Below are positions 21,192 to 43,571 of a stretch of 64,000 bases of DNA, in pieces (the stretch's first letter is position 1; every line of letters begins with the position of its first letter). Under the pieces are notes generated by a model that made no database searches, had not been told where the DNA came from, and saw only the letters and a list, made by a program, of their open reading frames with translations. The stretch comes from an uncultured Actinomycetes bacterium (lineage in GTDB: Bacteria > Actinomycetota > Actinomycetes > Nanopelagicales > Nanopelagicaceae): contig CAILXX010000001.1 of NCBI GenBank assembly GCA_903838295.1, positions 186,001 through 250,000 of the forward strand, read 5' to 3'. Both the position numbers and the translations under genes were made by a program.

Positions 21192-22337
21192 CTACAACAA
21201 GATTTCGCGGACGATTCGATCTGCAATAAGGCGCCCGCTTCGAGTCAAAACGGCTCTTTTTTCAGACCAGGACTGCTCGATCAGGTGACCCTGGCTCTTA
21301 AAGCCTTCTAGCGCATCGATCTGGACAGGAGTTAAGGAATCAAATGCCAGTCCATCCGCCAACCGGATCTTAAGCATAATTTCTTCACTGGCCTTCTGCG
21401 AATCCGTCAGGAACTCTTCTTCATGCTTGGGGTCTCCACCGTTAGCCATTTTCTGAGCATATGCAGTTGGATGCTTTACATTCCAAAACCGCCTGCCATC
21501 GATATGCGAATGCGCGCCGGGACCAGCTCCCCACCAATTATCCCCGTTCCAGTACGCCAGGTTATGGCGCGATTCTGATCCAGGCTTAGACCAGTTACTC
21601 AGTTCGTACCACCGAAAACCCGCCGCCTCAAATTTTTCATCCGCTAGTAAATACTTATCAGCCGTCTCGTCATCGTCTGGCATAACGATATCTCCGCGTT
21701 TAACCTGTGCTCCAAGTTTGGTACCGGACTCAACGATCAGCGCATAAGCAGAAATATGCGTGATTGGTAACGAGAGCGCTGTATCTATACTCCGTTGCCA
21801 ATCGGAGATGGATTCACCAGGAGTTCCATAAATTAAATCAACGCTAATCTCGTCAAACCCAGCTTCCCTAGCCCACTGGGTAGCTTTTAGAACATTCTCT
21901 GGATTGTGTGTCCGGTCCAAGGTATCTAGGACATGCGGTGTGGCCGATTGCATCCCAAAAGAGATTCGATTTATTCCAGCGGTTCGTAATGCCGCTAGCT
22001 TCTCTTGCGTGACTGTATCTGGGTTGGCTTCGGTCGTAACCTCTGCATTAGGCAGCAGATCAAATTTCTCGCCGATTGCACTAACCACACGTCCAAGGTC
22101 GACCGGCTCCATCAGTGTTGGAGTACCTCCACCAAAGAAAATAGTTGGAACTTTCTCGGCCGTGCTTATTTGCCGGGCAAAATTAATCTCTTGCAGTAGT
22201 AAATCTATGTAGGAACGAGATACATCCCTGAAATTGAGGTCAATGGATAGTTCCCCCGGGGTATACGTATTGAAATCACAGTAGCCACAACGGCGAACAC
22301 AATATGGAATATGTACGTAGAACGCCAGGCTACTCAT
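21192..22337 (-). CDS. hemW: HemW-type radical SAM protein
   Basis: The 381-aa protein has the radical SAM cluster motif in [12 protein letters not shown] and the [10 protein letters not shown] strand that follows. HemW proteins are heme chaperones related to coproporphyrinogen III dehydrogenase HemN. The extra N-terminal cysteine of true HemN is absent. It overlaps lepA by four bases and is followed by hrcA after 15 bases. Confidence 0.9.
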
Positions 22338-27630: not shown

Positions 27631-30087
27631 TTAAATAACGATGTTGACAAGTTTTGGGGCCCGGACGATCAATTTCTTGATCTCTGCTCCACCAAGTTCT
27701 GCCTTGATCGCCTCATTTGCCAATCCCAATTTCTCTAAATCTGCATCAGATATATTTGGAGAAACTTCGATGCGATCCTTAATTTTTCCGTTAATCTGCA
27801 ATACCGCAGTTACCGAATCCGCTTCGAGTAAGGCGCTATCTATTGCGGGCCAACCCGCTAACGCAATCGCAGGTTTATGTCCCAAGCGTTCCCACATATC
27901 TTCGGCCGTGTATGGAGCTACCAAAGATAAAGAAATCGCTATTGCTTCCGCCGCTTCGCGTACAGCGGGATCGGCTCCCCCACACCCAGAATCAATTGCC
28001 TTACGCGTGGCATTCACTAATTCCATAATGCGGGCTACGGCCACATTGAACCTAAAGGATTCAACAGCAAAAGAGATATCAAAGAGACTTTTCGCGGTTA
28101 TTTTGCGAAGCGCCAGATCGCCGGTAGAGAAATCGACACCAGGATTACTGGTCACATCACCTGATACACGCCAAGCTCTATTTAAGAATTTAAAGGAACC
28201 GCTTGGAGATACATCCGCCCAATCAATGTCATCTTCAGGTGGGCCCGCAAATACCAATGACAACCGGATTGCATCCACACCGTGTGTATTTAATTCATCA
28301 GATAACCGAACTAAATTTCCACGGGACTTTGACATAGCAGAGCCGTCCATTTGGACCATTCCTTGATTGAGAAGGCGTGTAAAGGGTTCTTCAAAATCTA
28401 GATAACCCAGGTCATGTAACACCTTGGTGAAAAATCGTGAATACAAAAGATGCAATATTGCGTGCGTGACTCCACCAACATATTGATCAACGGGCAACCA
28501 TGACTTAACTTCGTCTTGATCAAAGGCGCGGTCATCAAATTGCACACTTGTGTAACGAAGGAAGTACCAACTTGAATCGAAGAATGTATCCATCGTGTCG
28601 GCATCGCGCTTTGCATCCGCGCCACATTGTGGGCACTTTACATTTACCCAGGCATCTGCTGCTCCCAGGGGAGAAGATCCCTTTGGCTTGAGATCCATTC
28701 CAGTGGCATCTGGAAGTTGAACCGGGAGCTGCGCTTCTGGGACCGCAACTTCTCCACATTTTTCACAATGAATAATCGGGATCGGGGTTCCCCAGAATCT
28801 TTGACGAGAGATTAACCAATCGCGTAACCGATAATTCTTCGCACCTTTACCCAACCCTTTGGCAGATAACTCCTCAATAATCTTGTTAATCGCCTTCTCT
28901 TTGCTGAGCCCGTTGAGTGAACCAGAATTAACAATGATTCCATCACCTATGGTGGCAATTCCGCTAATGCTTGGATCATCTTCGCCAGTTTCTACCACTG
29001 TGCGAACATTCAAATGCATTGCTCGTGCAAAGTCCAAGTCACGCTGATCATGCGCAGGTACAGCCATAATTGCACCGGTACCATAATCAGCCAAGACATA
29101 ATCTGAGGCCCAGATAGGCAATTTTTCACCGTTAACGGGGTTTATAGCGTAACGCTCCAGAAACACACCACTCTTGGGACGATCAGTAGCCAATCGATCA
29201 ATGTCACTTGCCGCCTTAGTTTTCTCCAAATATTCGGTGAAGTTTCCTTGAATGCTTGAACCAGCCGCAAGTTCTGCAGCAAGTGCACTATCAACTGCAA
29301 CAACTATAAATGTGGCGCCGTGCAAGGTATCTGGGCGGGTTGTGTAAACGGTTAGCGGCTCTGCTCGACCTTCAATTTCGAAGGTGACTTCTGCGCCAGT
29401 GGATCGACCGATCCAGTTGCGCTGCATCATTAAAACTTTTTCCGGCCACTTACCTTCAAGATCCGCCATGTCATCTAGCAGTCGATCTGCATAGTCAGTG
29501 ATCTTGAGATACCACTGATTTAATTTCTTCTTGGTCACTGCGGTATCGCATCGCTCGCATAACCCGGCAACAACCTGCTCGTTAGCTAAAACAGTCTGAC
29601 AGCTCGGACACCAGTTGACGGCAGAATCTTTACGATAGGCAAGGCCCTTTTTATAGAGTTCGAGGAAGAGCCATTGATTCCATTTGTAATATTCAGGATC
29701 AGATGTGTGAAGAGTTCGATCCCAATCAAAAGAACATGCATATCGTCGCATCGAAGATTTTTGCATCTCAATATTTTCATAGGTCCAGGCCTTGGGATCA
29801 GTGCCTCGTTTGATTGCAGCATTCTCTGCCGGCAATCCAAAAGAATCCCAGCCGATTGGATGCATGACATTGAAGCCCTTTTGAACCCAGTAACGGGCAA
29901 TAACATCTCCGAGCGCATACGCCTCTGCGTGTCCCATATGAAGATCACCCGATGGATAGGGAAACATATCCAAGACATATTTCTTCGGTCTGACATCGCT
30001 GGAACGGCCAGATTTAAATGGTTCTATCTGATCCCAAATTGGAAGCCACTTCTCTTGGATCGCTTCAAAATCATAGGCCTCATGCAT
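27631..30087 (-). CDS. leuS: Leucyl-tRNA synthetase
   Basis: The 818-aa class I synthetase has the HIGH-type [14 protein letters not shown] motif, a zinc-type Cys cluster (CPSCQ...CERC near 168-193), the CP1 editing domain ([12 protein letters not shown]) and the KMSKS-type AMSKSRGN. It starts just inside the end of the SDR gene, an eight-base overlap. Confidence 0.97.
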
Positions 30088-31024
30088 GAGCAGAATTCTC
30101 CCATGTAACTCCAGTGAGTTCTTCCGATACCTGCCACAAATCTGAAGCGAGTTCTTGATCGTAAGCCAGGGCCTTTCCGTGAGTAAATTTAGGTGAGCCC
30201 TTCATACCAAACGCGCTATCAGGTCCAATAAATCCAGTGTGGTTAATTCCAGGCAGAGTCGCTGCACAAAGAAGTGGCAAAGCGCCATTGGCGGCGCTCT
30301 GAGCCAATGCACCACTAACCAGATCCATAGCGATCGCGACTGGTTGCGATTTCCTGGAATGAGAGAAGAGATTTGTACGGGCCCAACCAGGATGGGCCAC
30401 CATCGGAATGAAGCCATCGCCACGCGTAATGCGTCGACGCTCTAGTTCGTGGACAAATAAAAGATTGGCTAACTTAGAATCCCCGTACGCGATCCACGGG
30501 GAATAACTTCCGATTCCTAAACACCGGTTTTTAATCTCTAATCGAGTCTGATCCCCAAAATTTCCTAGGTATGAGGCAAGGCTGCTTGTGAGTACCAAGC
30601 GCTGACCAATATATTTTTGGATGAGTCCTGCAAAAGCGAAATGTCCAAGGTGATTTGTTCCTAACTGCATTTCAAATCCATCTTTGGTTTTCCCATACGG
30701 AACAGCCATTATCCCCGCATTCAGAAAAACTACGTCATAAATAGATGTAACAAGTTTTGCGGCAGCGTGCACAGAAGAAAGATCTGCCAGGTCTAGTGCG
30801 ATGCAATCTTGTGCCCCACTAAACTTCATCGCCGAAATTGCTTTGGACTCAGAGCGAGCAGTGATAGTGACATGGGCGCCACGACTCACCAATGCCTTCG
30901 CGCTCTCAAGACCTAAACCGCTCGTCCCGCCTGTGATCAAATATCTTTTCCCAGTTTGATCAGGAATGTCCGCTACAGACCAGCCAGATGCCAATGAGGG
31001 CTGAGATTCATTATCAGTATTCAT
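30080..31024 (-). CDS. Short-chain dehydrogenase/reductase
   Basis: The 314-aa protein has the Rossmann [14 protein letters not shown] motif, the NAG strand ([12 protein letters not shown]) and the catalytic YGDSKLANL (YxxxK). It is of the retinol dehydrogenase-like type, and its substrate is unknown. The ATG at 31024 is chosen because a longer frame to 31069 would translate the tRNA-Ala gene. Only three bases separate the start from the tRNA 3' end, so the mRNA is probably made by processing of a common transcript. Confidence 0.85.
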
Positions 31025-31027
31025 AAG

Positions 31028-31100
31028 TGGAGCTGAGGGGATTTGAACCCCTGACCCCTTGCATGCCATGCAAGTGCGCTACCAGCTGCGCCACAGCCCC
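31028..31100 (-). tRNA. tRNA-Ala (GGC)
   Basis: On the minus strand GGGGCTG and CAGCTCC form the acceptor stem. The anticodon arm is CTTGC-ATGGCAT-GCAAG, giving GGC, and the T arm is GGGGTTCAAATCCCC. It is 73 bases without an encoded CCA. Confidence 0.94.
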
Positions 31101-31134: not shown

Positions 31135-31497
31135 TTATCTTAATTCAACAATAGACAAAGGCAAACGCGGACAATCGTTCCAGAGTCGATCAAGCATGTA
31201 ATAGCCGCGAAGCTCCTGAGTCTGAATATGTACTACGAGATCAGAATAATCGAGCAAAATCCATGCGCCCTTGCCCTCTTTTCGGATTGGTTTTTCGCCG
31301 ATCTCTGCTAACTTCCTAAAAACTTCATCAGCAATACCGTCAGCCTGACGCTCATTTGCTGCAGTAGCCAAGAGAAAGACTTCAGAGAGAACCATCTGTT
31401 CGGTCATATCAATTGCCACAATATCGACGCCTAGCTTTTCATTAATTGCTTCTGCTGCTAACTGTGCTAAAGCTGTTACTTTTTCACTTGCTGCCAT
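31135..31497 (-). CDS. rsfS: Ribosomal silencing factor RsfS
   Basis: About 120 aa of the RsfS/Iojap family, which binds L14 and blocks subunit joining when nutrients are low. The DIVAIDMTEQMVLSEVFLLA and WILLDYSDLVVHI segments are typical. The ATG at 31497 (MAASEKV) is preferred over a start three codons upstream. It overlaps the end of nadD by 14 bases, the conserved nadD-rsfS order. Confidence 0.92.
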   Translation of the reverse strand: MAASEKVTALAQLAAEAINEKLGVDIVAIDMTEQMVLSEVFLLATAANERQADGIADEVFRKLAEIGEKPIRKEGKGAWILLDYSDLVVHIQTQELRGYYMLDRLWNDCPRLPLSIVELR

Positions 31498-32056
31498 AGA
31501 GACCACGCTCCTTGATATAAGTTAAAACCGAATCTGACACGAGCTGTGATACATCTCCACCAGATTCAATGACCTCGCGAATTTTCGTTGCCGAAATATC
31601 AAGGGCATCTATCTCTACTTCAGGAAATTCTGACTTATCTTCTCCCGGTCTGCGAACAACCAAGATCTCTACCTCTTTGCGTAATGAGTCGGCGCGATGC
31701 CAATTTTTAAAACCTGCCGCCGCGTCGCTACCCAGAATCAGCGTGAAGGAATCCTTAGGGAAAAAAGGCTTTAGTTGTGAAATCGTGTCGATGGTATAGG
31801 TCGGACCTTGCCGTCTCACTTCTAGATCTGTAAGCACCACTTTTTCTTGCAATGCATCAGGTAAATCATCGAGCGCCAATGTGCACATCTCGACTCGATC
31901 AAATCCTGTTGCTTCGGGTTTCACTTCGCGCAGATATGGATCCCCCGCCGGGACAACCATGATTGAATCAAAACGGCTAGCCAAAGATTCGATGATGTGA
32001 AGATGACCTCGATGGATGGGGTCAAAACTCCCACCCAGAATGCCTACTTTTGCGAT
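31484..32056 (-). CDS. nadD: Nicotinate-nucleotide adenylyltransferase with non-canonical start
   Basis: The frame encodes the complete NadD nucleotide-binding motif GGSFDPIHRGH at 32035-32003, followed by the rest of the enzyme, about 190 aa in all. It makes nicotinate adenine dinucleotide for NAD synthesis. There is no ATG, GTG or TTG before this motif: the frame runs from a TAG at 32074 through ATC GGG ACT AAG CAG ATC GCA AAA GTA GGC ATT. The first standard codon, a TTG at 31984, would remove the motif. ATC at 32056 would give a normal N terminus (xAKVGILGG). A sequence error is the alternative. Confidence 0.85.
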   Translation of the reverse strand: MAKVGILGGSFDPIHRGHLHIIESLASRFDSIMVVPAGDPYLREVKPEATGFDRVEMCTLALDDLPDALQEKVVLTDLEVRRQGPTYTIDTISQLKPFFPKDSFTLILGSDAAAGFKNWHRADSLRKEVEILVVRRPGEDKSEFPEVEIDALDISATKIREVIESGGDVSQLVSDSVLTYIKERGLYGSK

Positions 32057-32060
32057 CTGC

Positions 32061-32198
32061 TTAGTCCCGATCTAAACGGAGAACTAGAAACAAGAGCACT
32101 CCAAGGATGACGAAGGCGGTAACTCCAAAAAAGACCGGTGAGGCAGGTAACGGGCGAACGATTGCGTGAGATTCCCGGGCAAGTATGTGCTTGAGCAT
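32061..32198 (-). CDS. 45-aa single-pass membrane protein
   Basis: An ATG at 32198 opens a short frame beginning MLKHILARESHAIVRPLP, followed by a hydrophobic helix (about 20-41, FFGVTAFVILGVLLFLVLR) and a charged end LDRD. It begins four bases after the ligA stop and ends four bases before the proposed nadD start, so it fits tightly in the operon. The function is unknown. It may serve translation coupling to nadD as well as making a peptide. Confidence 0.7.
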   Translation of the reverse strand: MLKHILARESHAIVRPLPASPVFFGVTAFVILGVLLFLVLRLDRD

Positions 32199-32202
32199 GG
32201 CG

Positions 32203-34248
<2,046 letters not shown>

Positions 34249-43244: not shown

Positions 43245-43358
43245 TACACTTGTGAACAGTCGGACGCTTGGCAGTACCCGTTTCATGGATTCGGTATCGC
43301 TGTAAAAGAGGAAGACCGATACTGAGGAAATCTTCAGTGTCACTCACATACCGAAGGA
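43245..43358 (+). promoter_or_regulatory. Cold-shock gene promoter and bistable leader RNA
   Basis: TACACT at 43245-43250 looks like a -10 box, so the leader is about 110 bases. TTCGGTAT (43290-43297) pairs perfectly with ATACCGAA (43348-43355), enclosing a hairpin of GATACTGA (43318-43325) with TCAGTGTC (43334-43341). This covers the first two bases of the ribosome site AAGGA (43354-43358). The alternative stem pairs TCGGTATCG (43291-43299) with CGATACTGA (43317-43325), nine pairs with one G-U, and excludes both of the other stems. This looks like a temperature-dependent switch, as in other csp leaders. Confidence 0.6.
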
Positions 43359-43367
43359 AATATCTAC

Positions 43368-43571
43368 ATGGCAACAGGCACAGTTAAGTGGTTCAACTCT
43401 GAAAAGGGTTTTGGTTTCATTGCAGTTGATGGTGGCGGACAAGATGTATTCGTTCACTACTCAGCAATCCAAGGCAATGGTTACAAGTCTCTAGAAGAGG
43501 GTCAAGCCGTTACTTTTGAAGTAGTACAGGGTCCAAAGGGTCCTCAGGCTGATGCAGTTAACCCTGCATAA
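43368..43571 (+). CDS. Cold-shock protein (CspA family)
   Basis: The 67-aa protein is a single cold-shock domain with RNP1 KGFGFIAV and RNP2 VFVHYSAI. It binds single-stranded RNA and DNA and melts mRNA structure in the cold. AAGGA lies nine bases before the ATG. The long structured leader and the strong terminator make it a single-gene unit. Confidence 0.96.

Follow-up and report, generated by a model that had tools for sequence, protein, structure and literature searches.

The window analysed here is a 64,000-nucleotide stretch of the genome of an uncultured Actinomycetes bacterium of the family Nanopelagicaceae (assembly GCA_903838295.1, contig CAILXX010000001.1, positions 186,001 to 250,000). 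On its minus strand lie, in this order, ligA, a 45-codon open reading frame (ORF), nadD and rsfS. The first of these encodes an NAD-dependent DNA ligase (32203..34239; NF005932, 846.5 bits), and the ATG of rsfS (31135..31497; TIGR00090) overlaps the end of nadD. The 45-codon ORF directly upstream of nadD (32061..32198) reads by sequence as a one-helix membrane protein, ends in LRLDRD-stop, and has no match in Pfam or NCBIfam. A short one-helix membrane protein is conserved in this position across the family, with a consensus near LPAPPVFFGLFAFGxLSLLLYLxLRLDRD, and 102 of 103 loci from eight genera share the LRxDxD-stop ending. Two observations elsewhere in the window concern other genes. A tRNA gene (31028-31100, minus strand) overlaps the mechanical start of ORF 30080-31069, so the true start of that ORF must be further in. 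A cold-shock protein frame at 43326-43568 (plus strand) is preceded by about 14 codons of in-frame sequence upstream of its ATG that are conserved in three congeners and are perhaps a conserved leader.

NadD is an essential NAD-making enzyme. Read from an ATC codon, its gene occupies 31484..32056 on the minus strand (190 codons plus stop), is intact in 27/27 congeners read, and is the single nadD match in the window's genome. The product matches TIGR00482 at 132.7 bits (cut-off 112.45), with residues 6-187 on positions 1-194, and also matches Pfam CTP_transf_like. The nucleotide-binding motif GG[ST]FDPxHxGH is present at the N terminus as GGSFDPIHRGH, in alignment with relatives and with solved NadDs.

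The frame is bounded upstream by an in-frame TAG (32072..32074, minus strand), after which the minus strand reads ATC GGG ACT AAG CAG ATC GCA AAA GTA GGC ATT CTG GGT GGG AGT TTT GAC. The first-pass annotation had claimed that no ATG, GTG or TTG precedes the NadD motif in this frame, and the minus-strand reading, with the frame's stop at 31484, bears this out; the earliest standard codon is TTG 31984, as had been stated. Its candidate codons, ATC 32071, ATC 32056 and ATT 32041, are likewise where it placed them, but its list of near-cognates omitted CTG 32038, a further weak candidate. It had also put ATC 32056 five bases after the upstream stop; the spacer between that stop (TAA, 32063-32061) and the ATC (32054..32056) is four bases long (32057..32060). 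When NadD read from ATC 32056 is aligned with the solved NadDs 2qtm, 2qtr and 3dv2, its residue 2 matches chain residue 2 in each, which places the ATC on Met1. A search of Rfam at the nadD start gave no known RNA family and only the tRNA at 31028-31100, and predicted RNA structure there was nothing special (z -0.71); a role for RNA structure or for a catalogued RNA family was rejected on these grounds.

A start codon is expected to hold its third base constant where codons for the same amino acid elsewhere in the gene do not. In g1, the genus of the window, 32 genomes were available, of which 28 have a nadD match, full-length in 27; the four genomes without a match, together with G014, which has a weak match only, are 62-87% complete. 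Alignment of the start region in close relatives, the check that had been proposed for the original claim, showed ATC at the codon of 32056 in all 27 full-length loci, each from a different species genome. In the codon alignment of these genes, column 1 is ATC in every row, whereas the other seven all-isoleucine columns are mixed (the closest being 26 ATC to 1 ATT), and the isoleucine codons elsewhere are 187 ATC, 175 ATT and 45 ATA. An invariant amino acid with degenerate codons stands at 64 columns, and the codon itself is invariant at four: the ATC and columns 193, 194 and 196, the latter three because they overlap the rsfS start. Since the ATC is invariant while the other isoleucine columns vary, its third base is constrained for a reason beyond the amino acid, and its constancy matches what would be expected of a start codon.

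These alignments also bear on three other explanations of the missing standard start. The window's genome is a 23-contig assembly, which leaves room for a sequencing or assembly error, but the chance of this is negligible, given that 27 loci from different species genomes agree and that the complete genome of Actinobacteria bacterium IMCC26077 (CP015606.1, locus L131) is likewise without a standard nadD start. Error and chance are excluded as the source of the ATC, as judged from the aligned sequences. Initiation five codons upstream, at ATC 32071, would be in frame and open; yet this position falls within the upstream gene, and a count by eye gave ATC there in only 13 of the 27 g1 loci, which leaves it hardly credible. 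Alternatively, translation could start internally, at CTG 32038 (codon 7) or TTG 31984, with the loss of the N terminus tolerated. Both CTG and TTG can serve as starts, and codon 7 is one or the other in 16/27 g1 loci (again counted by eye), but it is CTA, CTT, CTC or TTC in the remaining 11, and a start there would cost the first beta strand. No standard codon is reached in G010, G016 and G028 until 54 or more residues into the protein, so that a later start loses the nucleotide-binding motif. We therefore regard an internal start as very improbable.

Comparison across the Nanopelagicaceae shows how far the missing standard start extends. From 16 genera, 139 nadD loci were read and 138 parsed; each parsed locus was checked for an ATG, GTG or TTG at codon -5 relative to the motif or further upstream. 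Such a codon is absent from 72 of the 138, namely from 27/27 loci in g1, 3/3 in g7, 17/18 in g15, 15/18 in g2, 6/6 in g9 (a count that includes one locus, L259, whose frame is cut by the contig end) and 4/4 in g12. The other 66 loci have one; these are all loci of g3, g4, g5, g6, g8, g10, g11, g13, g16 and g17 and the rest of g2 and g15. For g10 and most of g17 this codon is a TTG inside the upstream gene, which may or may not be the start. Among the g15 loci that differ from the rest of their genus are L041, with a TTG, and L038, with only an ATT near the stop. Excluded from the counts were two short weak matches (L028, L029), two loci without the motif (L274, L461) and weak matches of about 170 amino acids to a putative paralogue, coaD; distant homologues were all that a scan of viral contigs returned, and it was left out of the analysis. 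Outside the family, a standard codon between -40 and -5 is present in 47/47 general genome-contig loci (49 before the removal of L131 and L114, whose start regions mark them as belonging to the family), in 29/30 loci of the class (the exception being L449) and in 19/19 parsed loci with short frames.

Where a standard start occurs in relatives, its position is informative. Codon -7, the place of the ATC, is a standard start in 7/11 g16 loci (ATG or TTG) and in the single g3 locus; for example, L057 (g16) reads ATG GCA AAG ATT where the window reads ATC GCA AAA GTA. Relatives with a standard start at this very codon had been named beforehand as evidence that would count against the claim. They were seen only outside g1, while g1 itself is ATC throughout, and the fact that the same codon is standard in other genera indicates that this is the usual start position and not a misreading of the window. 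Initiation at ATC 32056, as first proposed, thus draws support both from its invariance in 27/27 loci and from ATG or TTG at the same codon elsewhere. Since the conserved N terminus lacks a standard codon and a single near-AUG codon persists there across species, this is, by comparative evidence, a conserved non-standard start.

A quick-method tree of nadD, built from 141 rows with the sequence from the motif onward (L273 and L275 were too short to include), joins g1, g7, g15 and g11 (support 99), g9 and g12 apart from L259 (95), and g2 (98). It needs seven changes between standard and non-standard starts and does not tell gain from loss. The nadD contig of L259 (genome G083, assigned to g9) groups inside g17 and is probably a stray contig in that assembly.

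Coupled gene pairs are recognized by a downstream start that overlaps the upstream stop or lies within a few nucleotides of it, in an arrangement kept across species, and this was found for nadD. Relative to the upstream stop codon, the ATC is at +4 in 22/27 loci of g1, 2/3 of g7 and 13/18 of g15 (37/48 together); g7 and g15 are sister genera that share the ATC near the upstream stop. In g7 it keeps this place although the NadD N terminus is longer, and the third locus there has it at +3. The remaining five of the 27 g1 loci have spacers of 12 or 15 nucleotides, so the tight geometry is not universal. Another arrangement is seen in g2 (16/18), g9 (5/6, the sixth being unreadable) and g12 (4/4), where an AUU overlaps the upstream stop as UAAUU (25/28 together). 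These predicted start positions are typical of translational coupling. Reinitiation after the upstream stop had been suggested for the window, and recurrence of the +4 spacing in most loci of three genera agrees with it, with reinitiation itself inferred from the geometry.

No standard start separates nadD from the upstream ORF that adjoins it. A frameshift, or readthrough of the stop, could fuse NadD to the small upstream protein, and no start codon would then be needed. The relative frames speak against this. Within g1, 22 loci have the +4 spacer (frame +1) and five are in frame, additional stops occur in the in-frame loci L024 and L027, and the frame differs again in g2, g9 and g12. As the relative frame changes both within g1 and between genera, a frameshift fusion is ruled out as a general route, and we consider any fusion highly improbable.

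To place the nadD start beside other starts in these genomes, infC, the gene for initiation factor IF3 and the best-known case of an AUU or AUC start, provides a control. In g1, all 28 infC loci read open with ATC AGC where the N terminus is conserved. Across the family, where 87 genomes have a match, the start is ATC in 29 of the 30 loci read; the sole exception is L377 (g16), with GTC. Crude computation of Shine-Dalgarno pairing gave medians of -4.0 kcal/mol for nadD (27 loci), -6.0 for infC (27 found of 28) and -2.2 for random 19-mers, so the Shine-Dalgarno is weaker at nadD than at infC.

How rare such starts are was estimated by a survey of about 574 kb of a 1.46 Mb genome. The first part took 221 conserved, non-overlapping ORFs from 250 kb of the window's contig and set them against as many as four congeners; of the seven flags raised, inspection left only nadD without a standard start. 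A further 324 kb contributed 110 orthologue-like ORFs with six flags, none judged real. Under a second criterion, applied to 205 and 108 ORFs (313 in all), there were seven and eight flags, of which only infC was real. By eye, the flagged ORFs at 22005, 57175, 127236, 6782, 229325, 103603 and 110393 were judged to be standard-start genes, as were the longer flagged ORFs of the second stretch, infC excepted; four short flagged ORFs (63-88 amino acids) are putative shadow frames. Among the 313 conserved ORFs tested, nadD and infC alone lacked a standard start. Neither criterion found both genes, and since each misses the other's, more such genes may exist.

Decoding of the codon would call for no special tRNA. 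A tRNA-Met gene found in congener G028 has a CAU anticodon and a GGG/CCC stem and looks like an ordinary initiator, and from this one gene the window's initiator tRNA is presumably ordinary too. An altered initiator tRNA was rejected on the strength of this one ordinary tRNA-Met, seen in stretches of G028.

Taken together, we propose, with a probability of roughly 0.85, that nadD is translated from the AUC at 32056-32054 by reinitiation after the upstream stop, weakly and in a manner open to discrimination by IF3. On reaching the UAA (32063-32061) that closes the small upstream ORF, ribosomes would stay on the message and reinitiate four nucleotides downstream, which would make up for the weak Shine-Dalgarno of nadD. 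The ordinary initiator tRNA would read AUC with a third-position mismatch, and the protein would begin fMet-Ala-Lys-Val-Gly-Ile. Initiation at AUC would be slow and open to IF3 discrimination, as for infC, and NadD would be kept low; low output and IF3 discrimination would be expected from existing knowledge of such near-AUG codons. The codon assignment draws on comparative sequence evidence, and the coupling, the rate and the IF3 control are what we infer.

Whether the AUC carries regulatory meaning is a separate matter. If reinitiation makes codon identity unimportant, a standard start could simply have drifted to AUC or AUU and been kept at most for low expression, and we rate the odds of this slightly under even. 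The variety of nadD starts in the family (ATG, GTG, TTG, ATC and ATT), the seven changes on the tree and the weak Shine-Dalgarno are all in keeping with drift. However, drift among near-cognates would allow ATT or ATA, neither of which occurs in the 27 g1 loci, and among the genes tested only infC shares the trait. That the codon is always ATC, never ATT or ATA, tips the balance slightly toward function rather than tolerated drift. A stronger form of the proposal, that IF3 gates NAD synthesis, seems to us rather unlikely: through the shared AUC the level of IF3 would set NadD and IF3 together, and nadD would have joined the genes under IF3 control on at least two occasions, by way of AUC at +4 or of AUU overlapping the stop.

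On the sequences compared, an AUC or AUU start of nadD is kept across many species in this family of freshwater bacteria. Gene finders limited to ATG, GTG and TTG would call NadD without its active-site motif. Conserved non-standard starts known from nature are few (infC, and sigR of Streptomyces with GTC), and a metabolic gene would now join them; the relatives with ATG or TTG at the same codon offer a natural comparison for the effect of a weak start and for the reach of IF3 beyond its own gene. In searches of one open-licence library we found no published report of such a start for nadD. Starts of this kind are already known (infC, sigR); going by those searches, what had not been described is their occurrence in nadD, the apparent reinitiation there, and recurrent switching between standard codons and AUC or AUU within one family.

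Three known systems are closest. According to PMC5472188, infC starts with ATT in E. coli and with ATC in Streptomyces, and IF3 thereby autoregulates. As at nadD, a conserved near-AUG non-standard start stands at the protein's first residue, but infC has the better Shine-Dalgarno and AUC in nearly all family loci read, whereas nadD encodes a metabolic enzyme, has a stop-coupled start, and carries AUC or AUU in some genera only. The same source describes Streptomyces sigR, which has a GTC start and was shown by experiment to be repressed by IF3 (PMC5472188). Both nadD and sigR are cases of a conserved non-standard start in actinobacteria outside infC; sigR differs in being a regulator with GTC or GTT and a strong RBS (AGGAGGTG) (PMC5472188); nadD has AUC or AUU and a weak Shine-Dalgarno, and its IF3 control is putative, only the codon class agreeing. 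For Listeria rsbW, PMC13068326 reports that variants changing ATG to ATA or ATT, near-cognate starts, support reduced translation; these are laboratory-selected variants of one isolate, in contrast to the state conserved across species at nadD.
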